The notes under the pieces are model-generated. The model was not told the origin of the DNA. It was given only the letters and a program-made list of their open reading frames with translations, and made no database searches. The position numbers and the translations under genes were made by a program. DNA of 64,000 bases from Pelagomonas calceolata (taxonomy: Eukaryota > Sar > Pelagophyceae > Pelagomonadales > Pelagomonadaceae), in assembly GCA_918797485.1 (NCBI GenBank), contig CAKKNE010000001.1, positions 558,001 through 622,000 of the forward strand, in the 5' to 3' direction. This document shows, piece after piece, positions 44,708 through 60,838 of this stretch (position 1 is the first letter of the stretch; every line of letters begins with the position of its first letter).

Positions 44708-46108
44708 ATGCCCTCCCCCCGCGCCAGAGGCAGCGCCTCGTCGTCGCCGCGTGCGTCGTCGGGGACGCCCCGCGGCAACGGCAGCCCCCGCGAGGACGAC
44801 GCCGCCTGGGCCGAGGCCTGCGCGCGGCCGCCGCTCTCGCCGCGCACGCAATTGATTCGGGCGGGCGCCGTCGCCGTGAGCCTGTGCGTCCTGGTGATGC
44901 TGCGGCCGGAGCTAGCTTTAGCCTACCGCAAACTCACGCGCTTGCCGGGCCAGAACGACAATCTGAAGCGGTTCCTGCCGCCGTCGCGGCCTGTGTGGAA
45001 ATCAAATTTTACGGCACGTTCGTGCTGAATCGTCGCGTCTCCCTGCACGCCATCGACGCGACGCCTGCTCGATGGCGTGGCGATGCCGGTTCGTCACCGC
45101 TCGACGGAGCCAGCACGGTCACGTCATCGCCGAGAAATGACTTATGCACCCGACACACTGGTTGATTTCCACACAGGTCGCGGCGCCGCGCCGCCGAGCG
45201 CCAGCTCCGCAACCGTTTGGAAAGGGCGGGCCACGCCGACGCGCGCGACGCGACGATAGACCCGGACTGGGCCTGGTTCGCGCCCGACTCCGCCTTAAGC
45301 TTAGATGCGGCGTCGGCGGCTGTGTGGAAATCAACCAGTGCGTCGGGTGCACCCGACAATTCTTCACGAAGTCATTTCGCGGCGATGATGCGGTCGTGCT
45401 GGACCCATCGAGCGGCGAGGAACCGGCATCGCCACGCCATCGAGCAGGCGTCGCGTCGATGGCGTGGAGGACGACGCGATGATTCAGCACGAACGCGCCG
45501 TAAAATTTTGATTTCCACACAGGTCGGCGGCCGCCGCCGCCGCCGTCGAGCACGGCGCGGCCCCCGGGCGGAGGGACTTGGACGTGGAGGCTTCTTATGT
45601 GGGTTGCTTCGGCTCCGAGACGTGGTTCGAAAATAGGACCTACGTCGGGGGGCAACGAGGCGCGAGGTACCGCCTGGCCGTCCGCGACGCCGCGAAGCAA
45701 AAGAAGCGCTATTTTGCGTGCGCGCGGCGCGACGCGGACGGCCACGGCTTCTTGTTTGATGATCTAGTCCCGGACGCGCGAAATGCGTTCCCGTCGGGCG
45801 ACCTCGTCGCCGGCGGCTGCGAGCGCGCGTGCGCCGACGAAGGCGCGAAGCTCTGCGGCTGCGCCGACGAGGCGTGCACGGGCGCCATGGGCGACGACCA
45901 GCCGCACCACCGGCGGTGGGCCGTCTACCGCATGCCCGATCCTCCCTCCACAAACCGTGGGCTGCCCGCGCCCGACGAGGAGGAGTGTGGGGACGCCTGG
46001 ACGCGCGTGGATGAGGCTCAAGCGGAGGCGGAGGTCTTTGAGGGGGCGGAGGCGACGGTGTTCACTCATTTAGGTTTCGCGGACGGCGGCGGGGGTTCGC
46101 CGGAGTAA
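44708..46108 (+). CDS. Type II membrane protein with WSC-like lumenal domain, three exons
   Basis: Exons 44708-44982, 45177-45311 and 45523-46108 give 331 residues after removal of two introner introns. Both junctions restore frame exactly (LPPSR-RRAAER region and LDAAS-AAAAAVEHG). The Ser/Arg-rich cytosolic N-terminus is followed by one transmembrane helix (AGAVAVSLCVLVMLRPELALA, about 50-70), a charged stem, and a Cys-containing lumenal domain starting ASYVGCFGSETWF with GGCERACADEGAKLCGCADEAC. That order resembles WSC-type carbohydrate-binding modules, but the match is loose. Probably Golgi or surface located. Confidence 0.8.
44991..45176 (-). mobile_element. Introner element, copy 1 (inverted orientation)
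   Basis: 186 bases with perfect 15-base terminal inverted repeats (CTGTGTGGAAATCAA and its complement). Flanked by the exact 8-base duplication GTCGCGGC (44983-44990 and 45177-45184). The intron runs 44983-45176: the GT of the left duplication is the donor and the right terminus CACACAG the acceptor. Internal sequence matches the copy at 45320 only when one is reverse-complemented, and it lacks 17 bases near its right end. Confidence 0.95.
45320..45522 (+). mobile_element. Introner element, copy 2
   Basis: 203 bases, same 15-base inverted termini, flanked by the exact duplication GTCGGCGG (45312-45319 and 45523-45530). Intron 45312-45522, GT-AG. The interior has a hairpin-prone core: CCACGCCATCGAGCAGG followed by CGCGTCGATGGCGTGG. 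Confidence 0.95.
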
Positions 46109-58294: not shown

Positions 58295-60838
58295 ATGGGC
58301 ATCAACAACTTCCACAAGTGGGTCGACGCGACGTTTGGGTGCACGCAGAAGGCGTCAAGGGTCGACTGCGAGGACCTGTTGGTGGATATGAATTCGCTCG
58401 TCCACGGCGCCGCCCGCAAAGCGAACACGCCGGCGCAAGCCCACAAGCTCATCCTCAAGCGACTCGAAGGGCTGCTCGACGAGCGGCGGCCGGGCCCCAC
58501 GGTGCGCGCGTCGCAAACGCTCGCTCTCTTCTCCGACGGACCCGCTCCTCTGGCCAAGCTCACGACGCAACGGGCGCGGCGGCTCCGCGGCCGGTCCGCA
58601 GCGCGAGCAGACGGCTACGACGAAGACGTCGTGGACGAGGCCAAGTTCACGACGCTGATGATCAGCCCCGGCACGGCGTTTTCGAGGGCGCTCGCCGAGC
58701 GCCTCGACGCCTGGGCGGCGAAGCGCCTCGCGAAGGGCCGCGGCTTCCGGAGGGTCGTCCTCAGCGACGCGTCCGTCGCCGGCGAGGGCGAATTGAAGGC
58801 CTTCGAGTACGCGGACACGTACGGAGACCGCGACGTCGTCGTGTACGGTGGTGATGCCGACTTAGTGGCCATGGCGCTTTCGCGGTGCCCTGTGTGGAAA
58901 TCAACCAGTGCGTCGGGTGCACCCGAGAATTCTTCACTAAGTCATTTCTCGGCGATGACGCGGCCGTCCTGGCTCGGTCGAGCGGAGAAGAGCCGGCATC
59001 GCCACGCCATCGAGCAGGCATCGCGTCGACGGCGTGGAGGACGACGCGATGATTCAGCACGAACGCGCCGTAAGATTTTGATTTCCACACAGGCGGTGCC
59101 AGCGACGAGGACGCTTGCGCATCCTGGACGAGAACGGGCGGCTCATAGACGTGAAGACTCTAGCGAAGCGCGTCGCGCCGGCGCACCCCTTAGACCTGGC
59201 CGTCTTGGCCATCGCCGGCGGCGGCAACGACTACCTGCCCGGGCTGCAACATTCCGCACCACACCTCTGGAGTGCGTTGAAAAAGAGTAAGGCGGGGCCG
59301 CTCTGGCGCGACGGCGCGCTGGACCGCGCGGCCTTCGCGGCTGTCCTAAAGGCGTTTGGCGAGTCGCGCGAAGGGAAGGGCGAGAGCGGCGATCTGCGGG
59401 AAGCGGCGCTCGGGCGGCGGCGCGCCGACGGCGCGCCGGCAGCTCCGCGGACCGTCATCACCACGTTAGAGCCAAGGCGGGCGGACCTCTGTAACGTCCG
59501 CGTGTTGCCGCCGCGGGACTTCGGTGACGTGGCGCGCGGCGCGGAGACTCTCACGTACCGCGTCCGCTGGCGGCGCGCCAACGGCGGGGCGTGGTGCGCG
59601 GCGCAAGCTTACGAGACCGGCGCGCCGCTCGACGCCGTTCCGCTCGAGACAATCAAACACGGCGTGCCCATCCGCGTGCCCGCCGGCGGCGGCGAGGTCG
59701 AGGTCTGCGCCTGTGTGGAAATCAACCAGTGCGTCGGGTGCACCCGACAATTCTTCACTAAGTCATTTCTCGGCGATGACGCGGCCGCTGAACGCGCCGT
59801 AAAATTTTGATTTCCACACAGGTCTGCGCGAGCGCGAAGAACAGTAAAGGTTGGGGCGCATCGCGTACTCAGAAGCAGCGGCGCGCGAAAAGCTTCTGTA
59901 TGGCGCTGGGCCCCGACGAACACGATGCGCACACGGCCGCGGAAATGAAGCGCCAGCCGGCCGCGGCCGAAACGCCGGCGAACGACGACGCTCCGGCGCC
60001 CGCGATCCCGGCTCCCATGAAGCGCGCCTGGGACGCGGCAGCTTGGTTGGACCAGCTCGAGTGGACCCTGGCCATGTACGTGCGCGGCCGTTGCGTGGAC
60101 TGGCGCCTGCTCTACGCGTACCCCGGCAGGCCGTCCGTCGGGGACCTCGTGCGGGCCTGCGGCGCGCCCGCCCCGAAGTGCGTACCGCGGCCGCCGATCT
60201 CGCCCGTCGCTGCGCTAGCTTGTTTGATTCCAGGGCGGTCCGCTGCGGCCTTATTACCGACGAAGGCGCGATTGCTCCTCGACGACGGCTCGCCCATCGC
60301 CAGTCTTTGGTGGGGGGCGAACGACGCCATCGACGTCGACGCTATTGAAGCCGCCGTCGACGAAGCGGTGCCTCCGGCTTGGGGTACGCCCGTGATCGTC
60401 GACGCCAAGGGCCGCACCGCTGTTAGGCTTCTTGCCGACGGCGCCGCAGCGTATCCGCCTCTGCCCCGAGCGCGTGGCGGCGGCGGCCGGGCGCCGCCGC
60501 CGCGCGGACGGGCACCACCGCCGCGCGGCCACCCTGTTCCGCCGCCGCGCGGTCCGCACGCCGCCGCGCCGTCGTATTCTGCGCCGCCCGTTCTCCATGC
60601 CATCGTTCCGCCACCGCCCGCTCACTTTACCGTCGTTCCACCGCCCGCCCCCTCGCTCGCAAAACGCCCGCCGCCTCGACATGGCCCTCCGCCGCCGCCG
60701 CCTCAACCCAAGCGCGGACGAGGCGGCAAGGGCCGCGGTCGAGGCCGTGGACGCGGCGACGCCGCGGCGGCGTATCGGCCGACGAGTAGCGGCGGCGGGG
60801 CGCGCGTGCCGCGGTCTCGCGGACGCGGCCGTTCGTAG
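58295..60838 (+). CDS. XRN-type 5'-3' exoribonuclease, three exons
   Basis: Exons 58295-58881, 59093-59702 and 59822-60838 give 737 residues. The N-terminus MGINNFHKWVDATFG, LLVDMNSLVHGAAR, LFSDGPAPLAKLTTQRARR, MISPGTAF, VLSDASVAGEGELKAFEY and VVYGGDADLVAMAL carry the acidic metal-binding residues of the XRN active site. Exon 2 continues with the XRN second conserved region (LAIAGGGNDYLPGL). Exon 3 has LDQLEWTLAMYVRGRCVDWRL, typical of the XRN core, then a Pro/Arg/Gly-rich RGG-type tail. Shorter than XRN1, nearer to compact XRN2/4-like forms. Expected to degrade 5'-monophosphate RNA. Both introns are introner insertions whose removal restores frame. Confidence 0.88.
58890..59092 (+). mobile_element. 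Introner element, copy 3 (GC-AG intron)
   Basis: 203 bases, same termini and interior as copy 2 with scattered substitutions. Flanked by the exact duplication GCGGTGCC (58882-58889 and 59093-59100). The duplication begins GC, and frame demands an intron 58882-59092 (211 bases), so a GC donor is used; the spliced product reads ALSRCQRRGRLRILDENG. Confidence 0.93.
59711..59821 (+). mobile_element. Introner element, copy 4 (internal deletion)
   Basis: 111 bases, with both 15-base termini intact and the first about 78 and last about 33 bases of copy 2/3. The middle, including the hairpin core, is deleted. Flanked by the exact duplication GTCTGCGC (59703-59710 and 59822-59829). Intron 59703-59821, phase 0. 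Confidence 0.95.

Follow-up and report, generated by a model that had tools for sequence, protein, structure and literature searches.

Short inverted-repeat elements that probably act as introns in Pelagomonas calceolata

Two interrupted genes in the window

When 64,000 nucleotides of P. calceolata contig CAKKNE010000001.1 (the window) were analysed, a single gene interrupted by two elements of 186 and 203 bp was observed at 44983-45530 (Table 1). Each element ends in perfect 15-bp terminal inverted repeats (TIRs), namely CTGTGTGGAAATCAA and its complement without a mismatch, and exact 8-bp target site duplications (TSDs) are present on both sides of both copies; this part of the original prediction was confirmed as it stood. 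The copies are related and are mutually inverted in orientation. Excision of 194 and 211 bp, which comprise the left TSD and the element, gives a single open reading frame of 331 aa (44708-46108). In the unspliced reading, translation would run into a stop codon within copy 1; the exon-2 frame is open through copy 2 but is shifted by it. The protein was judged by eye to be membrane-anchored, which is a prediction, and it has no Pfam match above the cut-off. No Rfam match was found within 44900-45600, and RNA folding of four pieces gave z-scores from -0.96 to -2.42. The 135-bp exon separating the two copies is about the size of a nucleosome (a single case).

A scan for exact 8-bp repeats around matching 15-bp ends, 40-400 bp apart, brought the number of elements in the window to four. 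The other two are found in an XRN-like gene, and when both were cut exactly, a protein of 737 aa with an XRN_N domain was obtained. The TSD of the first of them (58890-59092) opens with GC and would therefore provide a GC donor. A GT three bases further in could serve as an alternative donor adding one codon, and this extra residue is absent from the natural homologues P0006 and P0008 described below.

Table 1 Coordinates of the two interrupted genes and of their elements in the window
Feature	Position	Strand	Description
Host gene	44708..46108	+	Exons 44708-44982, 45177-45311, 45523-46108; 331 aa
Putative intron 1	44983..45176	+	194 bp, element with its left TSD; GT...AG; the frame is restored on exact excision, in agreement with P0001
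Left target duplication, copy 1	44983..44990	+	GTCGCGGC; carries the putative donor GT
Introner copy 1	44991..45176	-	186 bp; A-end on the right
Right target duplication, copy 1	45177..45184	+	GTCGCGGC; predicted exon 2 begins here
Putative intron 2	45312..45522	+	211 bp, left TSD plus element; matches P0001 and P0002
Left target duplication, copy 2	45312..45319	+	GTCGGCGG; carries the putative donor GT
Introner copy 2	45320..45522	+	203 bp, full length; A-end on the left
Right target duplication, copy 2	45523..45530	+	GTCGGCGG; predicted exon 3 begins here
XRN-like gene	58295..60838	+	Exons 58295-58881, 59093-59702, 59822-60838; 737 aa; two introners
Putative GC-AG intron	58882..59092	+	211 bp, TSD GCGGTGCC plus introner 58890-59092
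Putative GT-AG intron	59703..59821	+	119 bp, TSD GTCTGCGC plus shortened introner 59711-59821

The element family across the genome

The window contains nine matches to the 15-bp TIR at up to three mismatches, eight of them exact (mean of shuffled sequences, 0.72). When the whole genome (32,445,274 bp, 8 contigs) was searched, 790 forward and 772 reverse exact matches, 1,562 in total, were observed; the reversed pattern gave 0 and 0 exact matches. In the first set of elements described below, excluding the window, 63 exact TIRs are carried by the 45 elements having at least one. Scaling the genome total by this ratio suggests a family of roughly 1,100 elements, a rough figure.

TIRs were paired when they were flanked by 8-mers with no more than two mismatches. 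The first set consists of 53 pairs from loci around most of the listed places up to 2.15 Mb of contig 1, together with the window. The second set, in which each of the six large contigs is represented, consists of 23 pairs from 20 loci (for contigs 2-6, the first four listed on each) together with L050 and L051; its underlying list is confined to copies whose TIR is followed by G or T. One pair (L064) was dropped because it repeats the L015 insertion within a duplicated region, and the 76 pairs thus represent 75 distinct copies. Outside the 75 are 21 pairs with three to six TSD mismatches and some TIRs that were left unpaired. The shared insertion (L015:2068-2127 and L064:801-860) occurs on contig 1 and again on contig 5, its decayed duplication being identical in both places, which fits the large duplication between these contigs described in the genome paper (passages of PMC9481584).

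All 76 pairs have at most two TSD mismatches because the pairing rule demands it; identical flanks are found in 42 of them (31/53 in the first set and 11/23 in the second). Nearly all pairs lie within coding frames. Fifteen full-length copies share a median pairwise identity of 92 % (lowest pair, 56 %). Among 52 sampled introns, 12 measure 206-214 bp, and the 203 + 8 bp of the full-length copy fits the intron-length peak near 210 bp given in the published passages on this species. In addition, CAG terminates all 52, in agreement with the original prediction that the right TIR would supply the AG. The 3' border reads CAG/GT or CAG/GC in 52/52 copies (45174-45178 in the window), and it is itself donor-like because the duplication recurs after the TIR. 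Several introners may crowd into single genes (L053, L055, L065, L039 and L050), where neighbours are in places separated by exons of only about 40 to 60 bp.

A mobilising transposon was also searched for. One complete-looking hAT transposon of about 3.7 kb was found (L010:4542-8208; contig C4, about 4.4995-4.5032 Mb). It is flanked by the TSD TTGCTCGC, its inverted ends are perfect over 20 bp (CAGGGCAGCAGAAGGGCAAG), and a hAT dimerisation domain lies in its open frame of 721 aa. It was rejected as the autonomous partner, as its ends are CAGGGCAGCAGAAG and not the introner ends CTGTGTGGAAATCAA. It was the sole match for the hAT dimerisation domain; other hATs could exist. Searches for KDZ, MULE, P-element (two families), IS1595/Merlin and hAT RNase-H domains gave no match, and four of these six matched no control genome either. 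Two TIRs 4.7 kb apart, considered as the ends of an autonomous element, turned out to be parts of separate introners, and two extended introner ends had no exact match in viral contigs.

Splice borders and the restored proteins

The coding strand of each copy was called blind to the duplication, using a home-made codon-usage model on the pre-insertion frame, and a second, local version of the caller agreed in 74 of 76 cases. Read on the coding strand, the duplications of the 75 distinct copies open with GT (54), GC (20) or GA (1). GT or GC therefore occurs in 74/75, compared with 16.9 % of coding positions, a background rate taken from the coding frames within the fetched loci. The sole exception (L001), GA as called, lies in a weakly coding place. 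Of the 21 decayed duplications, 17 obey the same rule and four break it, and in two of these four (L050 and L063) a GT is seen by eye one base off. The GT of the left duplication, named as the donor in the original prediction, was thus found in most copies but is probably not obligatory, as GC takes its place in 20. Relative to abundance, and as rough values from small numbers, survival is 1 for GT, about 0.16 for GC and about 0.001 for all others, so that GC donors appear to survive roughly 0.16 as well as GT donors. Among 52 copies, neither positions +3 to +6 nor the exon on the upstream side showed a visible consensus.

The rule might reflect the target preference of a transposase and not selection for splicing. 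GT or GC does open the duplication on the opposite strand in 27/75 copies (16.9 % expected, p = 7e-5), and because this exceeds the background, a mild palindromic target preference is likely. A preference acting on DNA would be blind to which strand is coding, but GT or GC is confined to the coding strand in 48 copies and to the other strand in a single copy (sign test, 2e-13). Selection for splicing explains this one-sidedness and a preference at the DNA level does not. The codon phases of the GT donors (19/5/13) match those of GT in coding sequence (p = 0.78), as expected if insertion ignores the frame; the GC donors (2/8/5) fit less well (p = 0.06). We consider target preference improbable as the source of the rule.

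It was also considered whether the element holds both splice sites, with the donor GT at element position 5 (CTGT/GTGGAA, the slash marking the border). In this case 12 nt (8 of the TSD and 4 of the element) would be kept in the mRNA and four amino acids would be added to the protein. The reading frame is kept equally well, and one family of Aureococcus sp. adds 12 bp in this way, as 4 + 8 bp (PMC9860276). The original prediction that cutting 194 and 211 bases rebuilds one protein stood in regard to the 331-aa frame and its natural match (P0001). Frame alone also fits a 182-bp cut from the TIR-internal GT and cannot separate it from the 194-bp cut, so that other evidence was needed. Retention would leave unexplained why the TSD opens with GT or GC when read on the coding strand.

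Five Pfam pairs and eight proteins for structural comparison were picked by eye from the 76 as recognisable families. In the fifth Pfam pair (a reductase) no domain spans the junction. In the other four, the bit scores for exact excision and for 12 nt retained were 336.8/329.2, 31.6/29.9, 183.6/175.7 and 93.5/91.8, being lower with the 12 nt in 4/4; the evidence is modest because any insertion tends to lower the score. Each of the eight proteins was aligned with its best relative of solved structure. CysRS, TrpRS, dienoyl-CoA reductase and kinesin showed no gap at the junction. For SDR and XRN, gaps of one and two residues lie some six or more residues from it, and for the DnaJ-like and cyclophilin-like proteins, gaps of two and three residues lie no more than about five residues off. 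In none of the eight were four residues inserted at this point.

Natural homologues were collected for the window gene (five, P0001-P0005) and for the XRN gene (nine, of which seven were aligned). P0001 (332 aa, 97 % identical, cluster of 101) and P0002 (84 % identical, on a contig of 22,950 bp) are continuous over both window junctions. P0003 has altered residues and is one residue short at junction 1, with junction 2 intact, and junction 1 is crossed without interruption by P0004 (43 %) and P0005, which compare poorly at junction 2. Over the XRN junctions, including the GC-AG one, P0006 (93 %) and P0008 (67 %) are continuous; P0011, named from a pelagophyte, has one extra residue near junction 1, and P0009 and P0012 have three beside junction 2. 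Four added residues were seen at the junctions in none of P0001, P0002, P0006 and P0008. The GT/GC rule, the Pfam scores, the solved relatives and the natural homologues favour exact excision, as judged from sequence, and retention of the 12 nt is very improbable.

The remaining two homologues cross the 59711 junction and start downstream of the 58890 junction; they are P0007 and P0010, the latter 95 % identical and located on a contig of 71.9 kb. This pattern would fit relatives that carry the first copy and lack the second, with the reservation that all the homologues of both genes are known as predicted proteins, which may derive from cDNA or from intron-free DNA.

Ordinary MITEs that are not spliced, and that either damage their genes or are read through, were weighed as well. 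Read-through is feasible in 6/52 copies, which are multiples of three without a stop, and the case for splicing is itself drawn from sequence. The other 46 would break the frame, although the pre-insertion frames are open and coding-like in nearly all copies. Conserved genes such as those for CysRS and TrpRS are among those interrupted, and the GT/GC rule on the coding strand would have no other evident cause. Unspliced insertions are thus a highly improbable account. Spread through RNA, in which excised introns are reverse-spliced into other transcripts and copied back into DNA, would produce repeated introns with precise borders, but can be practically dismissed, as 8-bp duplications and TIRs are hallmarks of transposition at the DNA level, and reverse splicing would keep one orientation, whereas 31 of the 52 copies face one way relative to the gene and 21 the other.

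Interpretation and relation to known introners

The two features in the window are best explained as introners, that is, short non-autonomous TIR DNA transposons acting as introns, and we put the probability of this reading at about 94 %. The view of transposon copies serving as introns is supported, and we infer that they are removed from RNA without a change to the protein. According to the proposed mechanism, a short TIR element would insert into an exon and duplicate 8 bp of its target. The spliceosome would take the GT or GC of the left duplication as the 5' splice site and the CACACAG end of the downstream TIR, whichever that is, as the 3' splice site. Duplication and element would then be removed together and the pre-insertion coding sequence restored exactly. 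Either orientation would work because the same TIR is present at both ends. Insertions whose duplication has no GT or GC on the coding strand would presumably be lost by selection.

As a further and rather doubtful proposal, the donor may be set by position more than by sequence. A GT or GC 8 nt upstream of the TIR would suffice, with the two 15-nt TIRs possibly base-pairing in the pre-mRNA and thereby drawing donor and acceptor close to each other instead of a strong U1 site. If this were true, the family would be a natural screen of the donors tolerated by the spliceosome.

Among the explanations of bursts of intron gain, introners are a leading one. In Aureococcus anophagefferens, introner elements were reportedly described by Huff, Zilberman and Roy in 2016. 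The claim that such introners are known from Aureococcus was borne out by the literature, and they had already been noted in what is apparently this genome. The passages of PMC9481584 describe the P. calceolata RCC100 genome as 32.4 Mb in six nuclear contigs plus plastid and mitochondrial ones, and its authors linked an intron peak of about 210 bp to the Aureococcus introners. The introner-like introns of that paper (Guerin et al. 2022) appear to come from the same genome and the same size class of about 210 bp; its passages on P. calceolata introns give no TIR, TSD or donor rule, which are given here.

The A. anophagefferens introners, as far as they are described in the relevant passages, resemble the present ones in their pelagophyte host, TIRs, direct repeats of constant length and canonical splice motifs (PMC7789003), in a co-opted splice site and both orientations (PMC7789003, PMC10228655 and PMC9481584), and in a length near 210 bp (PMC9481584), a likeness of described features. 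Family 4 of Aureococcus sp., to judge by the name a close relative, also has an 8-bp TSD (Gozashti et al. 2022, PMC9860276); this family carries both splice sites and adds 12 bp, whereas here the TSD would provide the donor and nothing would be added. The introners of Symbiodinium microadriaticum are described in the same source as having TIRs, carrying the 3' splice site and taking the 5' site from the TSD, as here, but with a TSD of 4 bp instead of 8 bp. Those of Amoebophrya likewise have inverted repeats at the intron ends and direct repeats at the exon borders; they differ, in the passages of PMC7789003 that treat them, in non-canonical splice motifs, repeats of 3-5 nt and the lack of a family-specific inverted repeat. 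No fuller published account of this introner family was found by a search beyond whose reach lay most subscription papers, preprints and supplements.

Near-identical copies, TIRs, a TSD of constant length, an apparently co-opted splice site and both orientations were found here, and the family would accordingly belong to the TIR-type introners. The kind is already known and the genome already flagged, and the present case is a clear and well-preserved example. The present analysis adds the TIR itself, the observation that the two copies are mutually inverted, the count of GT and GC on the coding strand, the putative GC donors, the evidence against the retention of 12 nt and the natural uninterrupted homologues.

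The genome-wide check of TIRs with 8-bp flanks, proposed along with the original prediction, bore it out as far as the genome was sampled. Where the duplications are intact, the pre-insertion site can be read from each copy, and the surviving target sites can be counted without RNA: they are GT or GC on the coding strand, GC being about six times rarer relative to abundance. Through relatives in which single copies are possibly missing (P0007 and P0010), intron gain would become open to direct observation in wild populations.
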